A DNA stretch of 64,000 nucleotides from Globomyces pollinis-pini (taxonomy: Eukaryota; Chytridiomycota; Chytridiomycetes; Rhizophydiales; Globomycetaceae): the NCBI GenBank assembly GCA_025399215.1, contig MU621168.1, positions 1 through 64,000 on the forward strand. The letters are read 5' to 3'. This document shows positions 5,532 to 37,368 of the stretch, in pieces; the stretch's first letter is position 1; every line of letters begins with the position of its first letter. The notes beneath the pieces were generated by a model, which saw only the letters and a list, made by a program, of their open reading frames with translations, made no database searches and was not told the DNA's origin. Position numbers and translations under genes: made by a program.

Positions 5532-7209
5532 ATGAGATTCATTGTCTTACTTTCAACTTTATGTATGGTTAATGCTGATGTATTCAATATACAAACCAGC
5601 AAATCTATCATACATCAGAATGACCCTTCCATAACTCACTTATCTACAAAAGGTTTACATTCAAATACAAAATGGACAGTGATTCAAACACATCAATATC
5701 CAGATTATCAATTAAGAATTAAAAAAGATTCCAGTTTATGCGATCCTACTGTCAAACAGGTATCTTTGTTTTCTAAATCAAAGTATTCTGGTTATTTAGA
5801 TACTCCAAATGATGAACATTTCTTCTTTTGGTTCTTTGAAAGTCGTTCAAATCCTTCAATCGATCCCTTATTATTGTGGTTAAATGGAGGTCCAGGTTGT
5901 TCATCCATGATTGGACTCTTGATGGAACTTGGACCATGTCGAGTGAACTCTGGAGGAAATGATACAACATTTCATCCTCTAGCTTGGAATTCAAATTCTA
6001 GTTTACTATTTTTAGATCAAGTATCGTGTTTATTAGATTCATTTTTAGCCTGTCAATGTAGGATTTTCATATTCAAATACTGCTAAAGTTTCTACCACGT
6101 TACAATCTTCAGAAGCAGTCTATAAATTTTTACAATTATTTTACAAAGCATTTAATGAATATCAACATTTGGATTTCCATATCTCTGGTGAATCTTATGC
6201 TGGTAAATCATCTAGACGTTTATTTTTTTGGCAGGTCATTATATCCCATCTATTGGTAGATATATTTATGATGAAAATCAAAAAATCAAACAATTTCAAT
6301 CGAATTCTATTTATATTCCACTATCATCGTTAGCAATCGGTAACGGCTTTACAGATGCTGCCATTCAATACAATTATTATTCTGTTTTTGCTAATGATAC
6401 CAAATATGGACCTTTACTTTCCAAAAAAGCTATTCATAGATTAGAAAAGGGTATGCCAAAATGTCAGAAGTTGATTCAATTATGTGATCAATTAAAAATT
6501 AAGAAATTGTGTGCGTAATCATACTACCATTAACTTTAGTGCTGCAAATACTTACTGTGAAGATCTTATTGCACGGGATTATTCCAAGACGGGTTTAAAT
6601 AACTTTGATGTTCGTTTACCAGTATTTTCTATTTAAACTTATGGAAAGGTTGGAGATAAAACGTATGATAATATGGATAATGATATTATTACTTGGTTAA
6701 ATAAGCCATCAGTTCAAGCACAACTTGGAGTTGAACGTGAATATCAATTATGTAATGGAAAAGTTGGTAAAGCATTTGGAAAAACTGGTGATAGTGTTAT
6801 CTCAGTGATGAATGATTTACCAACATTACTTGAAAATGGAATAAGAGTTTTAATCTATGCTGGTGATGCTGATTGGATCTGTAACTGGATTGGTGATAAA
6901 GCTTGGACTTTACAAATGAAATGGAATGGACAGTTAGGATTTAACAATTCAACGGATATTTCTTGGATATCATCTATCACGAAAAAACCAGCTGGTGAAA
7001 TCCGAAAATATGATACTTTGACATTTTTAAAAGTTTATCAGTCTGGTCATTTTGTTCCACTTGATCAAGTAAGTTTTTTTCTTTGAATATTGAATTTTAA
7101 TTTTATTCATTTGTTTACCATCATTCAATTGACTATTCAACTGACTCTTTAGCCTGAACATTCATTAGAATTTATCAACAAATGGATTCGAAACCAAACT
7201 ATTGAATAA
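5532..7209 (+). CDS. Serine carboxypeptidase (S10, CPY-like)
   Basis: Model join(5532..6020,6049..6202,6235..6514,6540..6621,6649..7068,7153..7209), 493 aa. The start at 5532 gives a signal peptide ([15 protein letters not shown]), whereas the upstream in-frame codons give none. The S10 triad is visible: Ser in GESYAG (about residue 212), Asp in AGDADWICN (about 408) and His in [10 protein letters not shown] (about 469). The substrate-side motif [10 protein letters not shown] is also present. The enzyme removes C-terminal amino acids and is usually vacuolar or secreted. It lacks an obvious long propeptide like that of yeast CPY. The second intron cuts the glycine codon right after the catalytic serine motif. 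Introns are 28, 32, 25, 27 and 84 nt. No close gene partner is suggested by the neighbours. Confidence 0.92.
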
Positions 7210-7406
7210 ATTTCATTCTTATGACTATTTGTACTCTATTCAGTTTGATAAGCAATAATGGATAGATAATCTTTTCAATGACTCTGTATAGTATTAACTT
7301 TCACAGATCTTATCTAAAGAAGAAATGAAATATTTTATATAGTGCATAGTGTATAGTAATTATATTTAAAAAATGTATTATATTATAAAAAAGATATTGA
7401 AAAGGA

Positions 7407-29556: not shown

Positions 29557-31342
29557 TCAATTAGTACGTTTATTCATGCTTATTAGATCATCATTTGAGC
29601 CAACGACAAATAGTCTGGATAGTCTGGGGGTAGGTGGTGTCGCATTTATTCGCGGTAGTGTCGCACCACTACCTGCCAAAGAGTCCAAATGACTCAAAAC
29701 ATTTTGTCGATGGCCTTTTCCTTGAAATTGGGATGATCCGGTGGCTTCCTGGCTCGCTGCATCTAAAGGTAGTGAAGTTCTCCGTCTTCTCAACTTTCGC
29801 TTCTCTTTGACTTTCCTTCGGCGTTCTTGTAACTGTTTTTGCTTTACAGTAACTCGTTCTGTGATTCGGTTTCCAGCCAATGTAAAAAAATACGCAATAA
29901 TGGAAATCTAAAGTCAATGCAATATCTTTACAGCATTAAATACAAAAATCCACCAAAACTCTATAGACCAATGATTTTCTAGAAGTAAGTCGCCTGAAAA
30001 GATGAATAAAATGTAATGTTACCATCTATACGTTATCAACAGTATACAAACATCCCACACCAGTGATTGATACAAATGCAAAATATAGACCATCAGCAAA
30101 TGTCCACCGTTCTAACCAAGAAAAAAGAAATCCGGAAAACAAAAGCCAACATATAGACGGTATAAACACCAAAACATACTCAATTATTGCATCTTTTTTT
30201 GATTTCTTTTTTGGCTGCTGTTCTCCGACATCCATCTCGCTGATATTAGAATCATCATTTGTATCTGAGCCATGCAGTTCCTCCAAGTCAAACATTGCAA
30301 CAGTTGAAAAGCTAGTATTGGCGACACTATGATCATCCTCTTCAAAAGTTTTCTTTGGCATTAACAACTAAAATACTAATTACTGTTTGGGTTAATAAAA
30401 TTTCTCTTTCAATATCATTGTATCGTTCTGTCCGTAAATTTATCAAAAGAATACCATAAGAAACAATGAAAAAACCAGCTATACATAATCCGATGGTGGT
30501 ATATAAAATCATTGTCATTCTACCCCAAAATGTTTTGGGAACAATATTTCCATAACCTATCATTTAGTATTAATAGTCTACCAATCGTCAATAGCGTCAT
30601 CATACAAAACTGTGTCGACCTTTCATAATCCCAATGTTCAATAAATTGAAATAAAAAACCTCCAAAGATAACGTAACTGATCAATAAAAAATTAGCAAAT
30701 TCGTGTTGTTTCTGTTCAAGTGATAATTGAGTACGTACACTTTTGAAAATAAAGATATCTGATAGATACAATAGAAATGCGATAAAATTAATTATTCCAG
30801 AAGTGACACATGCGAAAAATCCTCCCATTGAATACGTGTATGTTTCATACGAATACCAGTATGAAAATGAAGCTAAAGTAGTCGCAATTATGACACCTAT
30901 GATAATCAATTGGAATTGTATAATACCTATAACATTAAAAGAGTTATTCAATAACGGTACTCTGAATTATTGAACACATACAAGCAGCTTTGGTACATGC
31001 ACTAATTTTCCAACCTTCAGATACGAAGTTAAATAGTGGATTGATACCTCTAGATCGTAATCTGATACATAATTGAGTCAACAGTCCAAAAATCAATGCA
31101 ATTCCAATCAAAATCGATGGAACAAGTCCAGTATTGATTCCATTATGGTCATTTTCTGATATTTTATTGATCTCCTTTTTGATCCACATATTATGTGCCA
31201 ATCCTCGAAATAAAGCCAATAACGCAAAATCCGATGAAATACATGCTGTAATACAAATTAACATGGATTAGAATGTATTACCCCAAAAATATGCTTTTGG
31301 TTCAAAATAGGGTGAAAACAAGATTTTGGTGATTTCAGTCAT
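29557..31342 (-). CDS. TOK-type two-pore outward-rectifier K+ channel, copy A
   Basis: Minus-strand exons 31342-31282, 31245-30961, 30926-30582, 30556-30384, 30352-30052, 30025-30023, 29993-29932 and 29907-29557, giving 526 aa. Eight transmembrane helices surround two pores: four helices, then TM5-P1-TM6 with filter TIGYGN, then TM7-P2-TM8 with filter TGVGYGD. This is the fungal TOK1 layout. It moves K+ out of the cell and helps set plasma-membrane potential. The cytosolic tail is strongly basic (QERRRKVKEKRKLRRRR). The intron after TIG splits the first filter glycine codon. The second filter is completed by a 3-nt exon (ATG, 30023-30025). Inverted relative to copies B and C, it lacks five introns they share. 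Confidence 0.92.
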
Positions 31343-32366: not shown

Positions 32367-34130
32367 ATGAAAATTCATATCAAACCTCATATAGCGTCAA
32401 AGTTTTATATGTATGGTAAGTATCCTTATAAAAATACTGTAATCTAATCAATCATTTTTATCCTATTTCTTTGTTGATGAAGTATAGCTTGCATCGTATC
32501 AAATTTTGGAATGCTAGCAACAATAAGAGGATTTGCTCAGACTCAGTGGATTGATACAGTCACTCAAACTCAAGGTTTTGGAAGTTCATCTCGTTGATCA
32601 ATAGTTTCACCTTTCAATAGCGAGAACGGAATTCTAATATTCCCAACTATTTACTTGATGTTATCATTATCGTCTTTCTTTACTATATGGACTTCATTTG
32701 CCGTTCGACTACGAAGTAGAGGATGGAAGATAAAACCTTGTACAATACTTGCATGCGTATGCTCTTTCCTTCAAGGTATGGATTGGATTAATATTAAGGA
32801 TCTAGTGGTTTTTTTATTGGCATCTCTTATCACTTTTCAAAAAGCTTTTCCAATCAACAAACATCACTACTCTGTTGGTGGATTCCACGCGATTGTCACT
32901 GCATGTATTTCTAATTTTGTTGCCTTTACATTGTTTCTATCTGATGTCATCATATTTAACAAGATTGCCAAACACGTTTATTATATTATGATTAATTCTT
33001 AGCAAACCATGGAACAAAAAAAACATGAAGTTGCTCACTATATATTTAATTTGTATCCTTAGTTTGCTGATATATTAGGTACATTATAATTGGCGCATTT
33101 GCATTCATGTTCTTGGAACATTGGAGTTTTGAACGAGCTGGGGAATTTTGCTTGATGACCCTTTTGACCATCGGTATCATCATAACATATTTAATTTTAG
33201 GCTATGGAAATATTGTTCCCAAAACGTTTTACGGACGATTGGTCATGATTGTCTATACAAGTGTTGGATTAATAGGTACTTATGGTTTACTAAATGGCAT
33301 AGTTGCTGGTTTTTTCGTCCTAACATTTGGTACATTTTCATTATCAACTAATGTAAAGAGGATGTTGTTGAAGAAGAGGTGGAAACCAAGCGAAGGGTAA
33401 TGACTCTTTTCTTTATTTAAACGTAGGAATCAAACGGTGAAGACTGTTCGGATGCGAACGCATCAGATTATGAAGATGAAAATTCATCTAATTTGGCACC
33501 ATTGCCATTAACAATGTCTTACACGGGCGATTCAATATTGTCAACCAACACTGAACGGACCAGAAAGACATATGAGAATAGTACATTGCGGGGAGTTGTA
33601 GTAGTGATTTCAATCCTTATGTGGTGGGTGTTTTCCTCCTGTGTCTTTAGTTATTTTGAAAACTGGACTTTTTTCGAAGGTTTTTATTTCGCCTTTGTAT
33701 CGATGACAGGAGTGGGATGTAATACTAATCAATATCTAATTATTAGATGGTATACTCGCTCATTATTAAATCTAGGTGATTTCACATTGAACAATCCAGT
33801 AGCAATTGAATTCTGGTGGTTCTTTTTATTCAATGCGGTAATCAACAATAACACTAAACATTCTAGATGTCTATTATTGTCTACGTATTGCAATTGGCCG
33901 GATCGCATGTAGCCAGAAGAATTGCCAAACGACAAGAAGACCATTTGAAACAACGAAAAGCTAGACAATTGAAACGTAAATTAAGAGCACAGCAACAATT
34001 GACTGCCATGTTAGATTTAGAGCACATGGAGAATTCGATGTCGAACGGTGATCTTGCTCATGGTAATACTTTTCCCAGTCTTCGGTCACCTACACGAAGG
34101 GTACCTGCAAATAGGATCTTTGTGACATAG
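32367..34130 (+). CDS. TOK-type two-pore K+ channel, copy B
   Basis: Model join(32367..32415,32488..32574,32605..32775,32806..32975,33003..33052,33079..33173,33201..33275,33303..33329,33359..33396,33427..33718,33747..33749,33776..33837,33867..34130), 460 aa. Twelve introns, mostly 26-30 nt. The first-pore filter is TIGYGN, split by the intron at 33174-33200. The second is TGVGYGD, where Tyr-Gly comes from a 3-nt exon at 33747-33749. An apparent TGA near 32598 lies inside a 30-nt intron. Exon lengths 87, 170, 50, 95, 75, 27, 3 and 62 nt recur exactly in copy C. The tail is basic (RQEDHLKQRKARQLKRKL). The start codon is chosen by length similarity to the other copies and is less certain. Confidence 0.9.
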
Positions 34131-35657: not shown

Positions 35658-37368
35658 ATGCAGATAGACTTTATAACGAATATGAAGAGCAGTAGAGCAT
35701 CAATGTTCTACATGTATGGTACCGAATCAGTAATTCGGACTTATATTAGGTTGTGTGTTGGCCAACTTTGCTTTTCTAAGCATTGTTCGAGGAATTGCTC
35801 AAAGGGAATGGATATTATTGGATGAAATACCCAGCAGTATGGAATAATTTCAATTGATGATAGATCATACCATTGCTATACATCCAAAGAATTACATTCA
35901 TCCAAATTGGTACCAGTATCTGTTGGGTGGAATTTCATTGGGATTGTCAGTAATCACTCAAATATGTATACGCATTCGAAGTAAAGGTTGGAAAATGAAA
36001 CCATGTACCATTATAGCATTTGTGTGCATCTTACTACAAAGTAATCATTATAGTCACCGCTCATTCTAGTTACACTGTTGTCCATTACAATATATACCTT
36101 CAATCTCAAATATCCATTGACTGAATATGCTTATTCACCTGGTGGACTTTGTGGTTGTTTTACTGGCATTCTTTCAAATACCCTTGCCGGTATTCTATTC
36201 GCTTTGGACATTCTGATACTACATTCTAAGTATAAACAGGTATATGAATGATCAATTTACCTTTTTAGCAAACTGTAGAGCAGAAAAAACATTATATTGC
36301 ACATTCTTTGTTCACCTTGTAAAGATACATTCAATTAATGGATAGGTATATAATTGCAGGTGCTTTAATTTTCATGTGGATTGAAAATTGGCAATTTGAG
36401 AGATCTGCAGAATATTGTCTAATGACTTTATTAACTATTGGTAATTATTTCGACTAACATTAGGATATGGAAATATTGTGCCTCAATCGGTATTTGGAAG
36501 AACGTTTATGATGTTTTATACTTTATTTGGATTGGCTGGTAATGATATTTATGTATTGATAATAGTTGCTGGATTGTTTATACTTTCATTTGGTAGGTTT
36601 TTTTATTGAGGAATTGATCAATAGAGGAAATAGTAGAGACATCAGAATTAGAAAGAAAGTTACTAGTATTACTTCTATTTTAATTAATTTTAGAATACCC
36701 AATCAGAGATGGACACATCTGATACACAAACTGTTGATCAACAAAATGTTCAAGTTAACACTGATGAATGTTTTCTTGAAAACAATTCAAATAAAGCCTT
36801 GTCAACGATAGAGGAACCCACGGTCTTCAAATATATCTCTGTTGGCTTATTGGCCATGATTTGGTTAGGAGTCGGATCTTGGGTATTTGCCATCTTTGAG
36901 GATTGGACTTATTTTGAAGGTCTCTACTTTGGATTTGTTTCAATCACTGGTATAGGATGTAATGATTTTTCGTAGTAATTATAGATGGTAATTTTCAACC
37001 GAAATTAAATCCAAAGGTGATTTTCAAATTAAAAACCCATGGTCTATAGAGTTTTGGTGGGTGTTCTTATACAATGCTGTAATCTATATCTCACATTTAA
37101 TATTCAATAGATATCTATTCTAGTATATTCAATTACAATGATCGGCAAAAGAATTGGAACTCGATTAGCACAACGTGAACGACTATTAGCAGAACAACGT
37201 AGATTAAGACGATTAAAACAGATTCAAATGAAGAATCAGGTGAATTCACCAACATCCGATGTGACCGAAGTCGAAAGAAGAAATCAGGAATTGAATGCTC
37301 AGACATTCCCACTTATACTGCAAGATGTTAGACAACGAGCTGCAGATACAATTTGGTTGATATCATAA
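35658..37368 (+). CDS. TOK-type two-pore K+ channel, copy C
   Basis: Model join(35658..35718,35750..35836,35864..36040,36070..36239,36269..36318,36346..36440,36464..36538,36566..36592,36625..36665,36694..36958,36985..36987,37017..37078,37111..37368), 456 aa. Twelve introns of 23-32 nt at the same positions as copy B. Filters are TIGYGN and TGIGYGD, the latter again completed by a 3-nt exon (36985-36987). Eight hydrophobic helices and a basic cytosolic tail (QRRLRRLKQIQMK) are present. Same strand as copy B and about 1.5 kb downstream, so the pair looks like a tandem duplication. The 61-nt first exon equals that of copy A and supports the start at 35658; ATG 35682 is an alternative. Confidence 0.9.

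Follow-up and report, generated by a model that had tools for sequence, protein, structure and literature searches.

Three TOK-type genes and their pores

The window, the whole stretch of 64,000 nucleotides analysed from Globomyces pollinis-pini, contains three neighbouring genes for two-pore potassium channels. Copy A (positions 29557–31342, minus strand) has 9 coding exons encoding 515 residues, copy B (32367–34130, plus strand) has 12 encoding 470 residues and copy C (35682–37368, plus strand) has 13 encoding 448 residues, the public model of the last (BC833DRAFT_620132) being different at the selectivity filter. A and C are 39% and 42% identical to B, respectively, and the pore residues are intact in all three gene models. 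Ion_trans_2 occurs in two stretches in each of the three proteins, as in a two-pore channel. A profile of A, B and C was compared with solved chains; among the best 60 of 92 matches the closest are TOK structures (9pik, 5e-26; 45il and 45io, 1.3e-21), and the next chain is TASK2 (4e-15). These two results bear out the initial annotation of the genes as TOK-type channels. Its claim of a chytrid origin also held, the nearest proteins coming from Globomyces sp. JEL0801 (P0001, 87% identical to B), Boothiomyces and Terramyces, the last two genera belonging to the same order, Rhizophydiales. Copy C is nearest to the G. pollinis-pini protein BC833DRAFT_620132 (P0094), with 97% identity; copies A and B of this genome have no deposited model among the matches listed, which come from a length-limited set in which 8000 candidates were scored.

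TOK channels are defined by eight transmembrane segments, four of which precede the first pore unit. Hydropathy places eight segments in the expected layout in copy C and nine in copy A, one of them on the pore-2 region; copy B has eight, with no N-terminal segment and two adjoining ones instead. The TOK channels 9pik and 45il resemble A, B and C in having two pore domains and may also share with them a total of about eight hydrophobic segments. They differ at the filters: pore 1 reads TIGYGN in A, B and C but TIGLGD in 9pik and TVGLGD in 45il, and pore 2 reads TG[VI]GYGD as against TIGYGD in both structures. The pore-1 motif TIGYG is kept in 12 of 12 aligned rows. The pore-2 filter takes the form T-G-[VI]-G-[YF]-G-[DN] in A, B (near 33700–33790), C, P0002–P0005, P0095 and P0096. 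Gly thus stands in the A–B–C branch where the usual signature has Thr (TTIGYGD in P0018; TIGYGD in 9pik and 45il), so the innermost pore-2 ion site should differ in this branch.

The pore-1 filter is split by a phase 1 intron (TIG^YGN) falling between bases 1 and 2 of the first Gly codon in 3/3 copies; it measures 27 nt in B (33174–33200, plus strand), 25 nt in A (30557–30581, minus strand) and 23 nt in C (36441–36463, plus strand). In the K2P genes of animals, a shared intron falls at the corresponding position of pore 1; a literature search on K2P intron places did not bring up this shared position. A further intron of copy B (33053–33078) starts GTATCCTT, which we take to resemble a U12-type donor; the corresponding intron of C starts GTAAAG, and the U12-like start in B is probably a matter of chance.

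A tree of 14 proteins does not resolve the branching among A, B with P0001, C, the Boothiomyces proteins P0002 and P0003, P0004 and P0005, P0095 and P0097; the terminal branches leading to A and C have lengths near 0.95. Judged from these sequences, the duplications that produced A, B and C are old, perhaps as old as the split between Globomyces and Boothiomyces.

The pore-2 cassette

At pore 2, each of the three genes (3/3) appears to have an ATG microexon of 3 nt between two minimal introns. In copy B (plus strand) the preceding exon ends GGA T and is followed by intron 1 (33719–33746, 28 nt), the ATG (33747–33749), intron 2 (33750–33775, 26 nt) and GT GAT. On the minus strand, copy A has intron 1 at 30026–30051 (26 nt), the ATG at 30023–30025 and intron 2 at 29994–30022 (29 nt); in copy C, on the plus strand, the corresponding features are 36959–36984 (26 nt), 36985–36987 and 36988–37016 (29 nt). 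The rebuilt gene models return exactly the coordinates first claimed for the ATG and flanking introns of B, with the same arrangement in A and C. With 3 nt and GT–AG introns on both sides in 3/3 copies, the exon belongs to the microexon size class (at most 27–30 nt, canonical flanking introns).

The two introns, separated by one codon, are of phase 1 in all three copies. Intron 1 splits the filter Tyr codon after its first base and intron 2 splits the next Gly codon after its first base, the microexon consisting of the AT of the Tyr and the G of the Gly (in B, T|AT and G|GT). With the microexon, pore 2 reads GVGYGDF in B, GVGYGDL in A and GIGYGDF in C. Without it the reading becomes GVGCDF, GVGCDL and GIGCDF, respectively, in frame and one residue shorter, in agreement with the filter loss originally proposed for skipping. 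Because the ATG supplies bases 2–3 of the filter Tyr and base 1 of the Gly, inclusion is needed for pore 2. From filter restoration and conservation among the paralogues, the microexon is very probably present in mature mRNA; the loss of the filter on skipping argues that its inclusion is, again very probably, constitutive. The gene models predict the mRNA strings GGTGTGGGATATGGCGACTTACT (A), GGAGTGGGATATGGTGATTTCAC (B) and GGTATAGGATATGGTGATTTTCA (C) with the microexon and GGTGTGGGATGCGACTTACT (A), GGAGTGGGATGTGATTTCAC (B) and GGTATAGGATGTGATTTTCA (C) on skipping; an unbroken filter lacking the cassette introns would read GGATATGG(T/C)GA.

We enumerated splice paths through 186–187 nt around the filter, using all GT–AG, GC–AG and AT–AC introns of at least 15 nt. 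Removal of one intron gave a stop-free G[YFL]GD in none of 89 paths in B, 95 in C and 139 in A. Two-intron paths numbered 878 in B, 1097 in C and 1033 in A, and in B and C the path through the ATG is the sole maker of G[YFL]GD. Copy A has one more filter-making path, which joins an AT–AC intron to a TG exon and removes the stretch before the filter, and which we regard as implausible. Among these paths, a different boundary giving GYG without the microexon, which would have overturned the original proposal, does not occur in B or C, and in A takes only this implausible form.

The pattern GGATGT N20–45 AGATGGT N17–45 AGGNGA has three matches in the 18.5-Mb genome, exactly the cassettes of A, B and C, and none in a reversed-genome control. 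The contiguous string GGATATGGYGAYTT occurs at two places, both in one kind of short, unrelated stretch with stops and not in a channel, so no intronless copy of the filter is seen. The word GGATATGGTGATTT recurs at L047 and L048, both times inside the same short segment (CYFFHLIDGYGDFQI followed by a stop), apparently a repeat that has nothing to do with channels. For TAYGGNGAYTTYNNNCC, which has five genome matches, two of the five were read and are not channels; the other three were scanned and hold no convincing channel-like filter. Other Ion_trans_2 matches were set aside with unbroken filters: TVGYGD in one open frame at L020 and L021, and TIGFGDLSP at L023.

A fourth TOK-like two-pore gene lies elsewhere in the genome (L027/L028; G000:C233, about 5585–7355, minus strand), its two Ion_trans_2 matches being its two pores. 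A partial model has an uninterrupted TLGFGD in pore 1; its pore 2, MTIGYGDYT, is split at TIG^YGD by one ordinary intron of 137 nt (5695–5831, minus strand), within which no AG-ATG-GT or AG-ACG-GT core was found. Its best solved matches are weak, 9pik for pore 1 (2.2e-5) and 45il for pore 2 (1.9e-7), with K2P chains close behind the latter. Unlike the A–B–C branch, the fourth gene has the usual MTIGYGD in pore 2, and its pore-2 intron place matches that of the pore-1 filter intron of A, B and C. Split filters thus recur in the TOK family here, the microexon being seen only in the A–B–C branch; the fourth gene therefore provides a built-in control.

The short cassette introns were set against the intron background of 123 kb away from the TOK cluster (two loci overlapping by ~1.5 kb), where candidates between coding-like flanks were counted only if straight read-through was closed. 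Among GTA..TAG candidates, 16/23 fall at 24–29 nt, compared with 1/3, 1/6 and 0/7 for three trinucleotide controls; for the looser GT..AG the figure is 21/81, compared with 6/85, 5/118 and 4/45 for dinucleotide controls. (The 20 GTA..AG rows at 20–40 nt stem from 18 donors.) This excess over controls indicates that introns of about 27 nt are ordinary in this genome. Together, the models of A, B and C contain 31 introns, of which 30 measure 23–36 nt and the remaining one, in B, 72 nt. Ultra-short introns of ~25 nt are described for some ciliates in the accessible part of PMC5014332. One U2 snRNA gene was found in the genome (L046; G000:C213), with the stretch GTAGTATCTG, the locus being partly masked.

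Splicing of the cassette and rival readings

We consider it highly probable, on the genomic sequence, that the ATG is a constitutive 3-nt exon whose two minimal flanking introns are removed one after the other in all three genes. Splice-site scores were trained on 25 other TOK introns, modelled by hand from homology, and the cassette donors and acceptors lie within the range of these. Donor and acceptor scores for intron 1 are 0.7/3.6 bits in A, 4.1/6.0 in B and 6.1/8.0 in C, and for intron 2 they are 6.8/4.1, 6.9/4.6 and 7.7/5.7, respectively; the intron 2 donor thus exceeds the intron 1 donor in all three copies. Intron 1 of copy A (donor GTTTGT) is weak at both ends, near the bottom of the training ranges (−0.2 to 9.3 for donors and 3.5 to 8.6 for acceptors).

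A mechanism can be proposed in which the splice sites are paired across each short intron (intron definition). Since the sites are presumably paired in this way, the exon would have no minimum size for recognition, and pairing of near ends, 26–29 nt apart, would outcompete the 57–58-nt skip. Removal would be stepwise because an exon of 3 nt cannot carry both sets of splicing factors together. Intron 2 is probably removed first, as its donor scores higher in every copy, although the set of scores behind this suggestion is small. The sequence could persist with no special signal, because the protein allows only ATG or ACG and the final G suits the donor; the ATG may be kept mainly since few alternatives serve both protein and splice sites. 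The initial annotation had asked how the spliceosome recognises such an exon. A published candidate answer, in the part of PMC4674806 available to us, is that the introns are removed in turn, each recognised by intron definition; this fits a genome in which introns of 24–29 nt abound.

Regulated skipping, raised as a question at the outset, fares less well. Here the ATG would be omitted conditionally, and the resulting G[VI]GCD pore, still in frame, would be non-conducting and might poison dimers. The skip products are indeed in frame in A, B and C, as for any exon of 3n nucleotides, and the intron 1 donors are the weaker ones. The 57–58-nt intron that skipping would need is longer than 30/31 of the introns in these three gene models, which tells against the suggestion; longer introns are nonetheless spliced in this genome (one of 72 nt in B and one of 137 nt in the C233 gene), and this weakens the argument from length. 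Nor is there a shared intronic element. In 5/6 comparisons the cassette introns of different copies are no more alike than shuffled sequence, the sixth, intron 1 of B and C, lying ~2 sd above that level. The flanking introns have diverged, as had been claimed, and this likeness near the shuffled level implies that exon and splice sites were kept while the intron bodies were rewritten. We consider regulated skipping improbable. A fuller version makes the 57–58-nt cassette a switch in three genes, in which stepwise splicing, intron 2 first, would trade GYGD channels for dimer-silencing GCD subunits, the cassette being older than the paralogue split and perhaps than the separation from the Boothiomyces line; the chance of this version is likewise small.

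Constitutive inclusion must also be weighed against the deposited model of copy C. P0094 differs from the rebuilt copy C only in 8 extra start residues, one retained stretch and the filter, where it uses the donor CTG|GTATAG and a 12-nt exon, TAATTATAGATG, before the same second intron, so that pore 2 reads SITVIIDGDF. Were this model right, its VIIDGDF pore would make C a non-conducting or degenerate subunit. It was deposited for that very gene, its frame is open, its sites are GT–AG and the pore region of the protein keeps its length; the upstream donor of this path, moreover, scores 8.1 bits as against 6.1 for the microexon path. Its acceptor, however, scores 3.9 against 8.0 bits, and the two-site sum is 12.0 against 14.1. 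The 12-nt exon is also impossible in A and B, because the two bases preceding it are AT and CT, respectively, and not AG. A further difficulty lies upstream of the filter. In-frame, stop-free introns of 27 nt occur in B (33276–33302) and C (36539–36565), and these are kept as coding in P0001 (GTYGLLNGI) and P0094 (GNDIYVLII). Copy A and the Boothiomyces proteins have no residues at this stretch, and the retention of GNDIYVLII with no counterpart in them points to P0094 being an in-silico model. The deposited reading of copy C is therefore very improbable. P0001, the JEL0801 orthologue of B, runs FFEG-DFTL, with neither the filter nor the preceding stretch, and the microexon is absent from both public models. 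Two public Globomyces models with a false or missing filter would mislead surveys of potassium channels in early fungi.

That a single intron of 57–58 nt is removed, the channels truly having a G[VI]GCD filter and the ATG arising by chance, is scarcely credible. In every copy, GGAT can be joined to GTGAT or GCGAC with the frame kept and no stop, but AG-A[TC]G-GT with both parts at least 20 nt long arises at only ~6.6e-4 per composition-matched random intron of 57–58 nt, yet is present in all three. Relatives outside Globomyces also speak against it: all six aligned ones with residues at the filter read GYG or GFG (GIGYGD in four, GIGYGN in one and GIGFGN in one). Among them, Boothiomyces P0002 and P0003 read GIGYGDF, known here from protein alone; a seventh aligned relative, P0097, ends just before the filter. 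A stwintron (nested twin intron), which would likewise present two adjoining introns needing removal in turn in a fungus, has a negligible chance of being the explanation, since in the [D1,2] type the internal intron interrupts the donor of the external intron (as given in the available portions of PMC12403724 and PMC9024468), whereas both donors and both acceptors here are intact in genomic order in 3/3 copies.

The preferred reading, a constitutive microexon, would place an ultra-small exon at the potassium-selecting residues three times in one genome, where an error should abolish function. The cassettes of A, B and C offer a natural test of spliceosome accuracy on introns under 30 nt and on an exon too small to contain exonic signals, and would also allow the order of intron removal to be tested.

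Comparison with known ultra-small exons

The initial annotation called 3-nt exons exceptionally rare. Rare they are, but the wording is too strong, since published accounts, as far as their available parts go, describe exons of 3 nt in animals and of 1 nt in both Arabidopsis and a Fusarium P450 (PMC8042270, PMC7392893, PMC4674806, PMC12940212). The animal cases include a 3-bp micro-exon in Drosophila homothorax (PMC7392893) and 3-nt exons in mouse Ncam and Drosophila TnT (PMC8042270), and exons of 2–5 bp are cited for Arabidopsis, Drosophila and humans (PMC12940212). The homothorax, TnT and Ncam exons match those of A, B and C in size. By these same partial sources, the homothorax exon and that of TnT undergo alternative splicing, whereas the exon of A, B and C codes for part of the functional core and would be constitutive. 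In the open literature, searches on 3-nt microexons in fungi and on microexons at the potassium channel selectivity filter each found no paper; papers on 3-nt exons, searched in six spellings, included none on a fungal channel as judged by titles and the starts of abstracts.

Plants supply a mechanistic parallel. 1-nt exons are reported in plant APC11 and VPS55 in the accessible text of PMC8831610. For the constitutive 1-nt exon of Arabidopsis APC11, the authors favour intron definition with the introns removed in turn (Guo & Liu 2015, PMC4674806, available in part). APC11 would thus share with A, B and C an ultra-small, constitutive exon and stepwise intron definition; it differs, on the part of the paper at hand, in being from a plant, in having been tested in protoplasts and in lying away from any ion-selective site.

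The nearest fungal parallel is Fusarium CYP621A, in which RNA reads confirm a 1-nt exon and public models are nearly all wrong at the motif (Nelson & Syed 2026, PMC12940212, in the portion available); the same source names, for another fungus, an exon of 8 nt within a conserved P450 motif. From these and the other cases, exons this small are already known, in fungi too. As in A, B and C, the CYP621A exon is fungal, ultra-small, sits in a highly conserved motif where public models are wrong and was found by motif logic across orthologues. The two systems differ in that the CYP621A exon is 1 nt, so that skipping shifts the frame, whereas skipping in A, B and C stays in frame. The former is confirmed by RNA reads, the latter predicted from DNA. 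The interrupted region spans 139 nt in F. graminearum CYP621A compared with 57–58 nt in A, B and C, and CYP621A is one set of orthologues where A, B and C are three diverged paralogues. What is special to A, B and C is the site, a potassium filter; the occurrence in three old paralogues; and the compactness, with two introns and an exon held within 57–58 nt.
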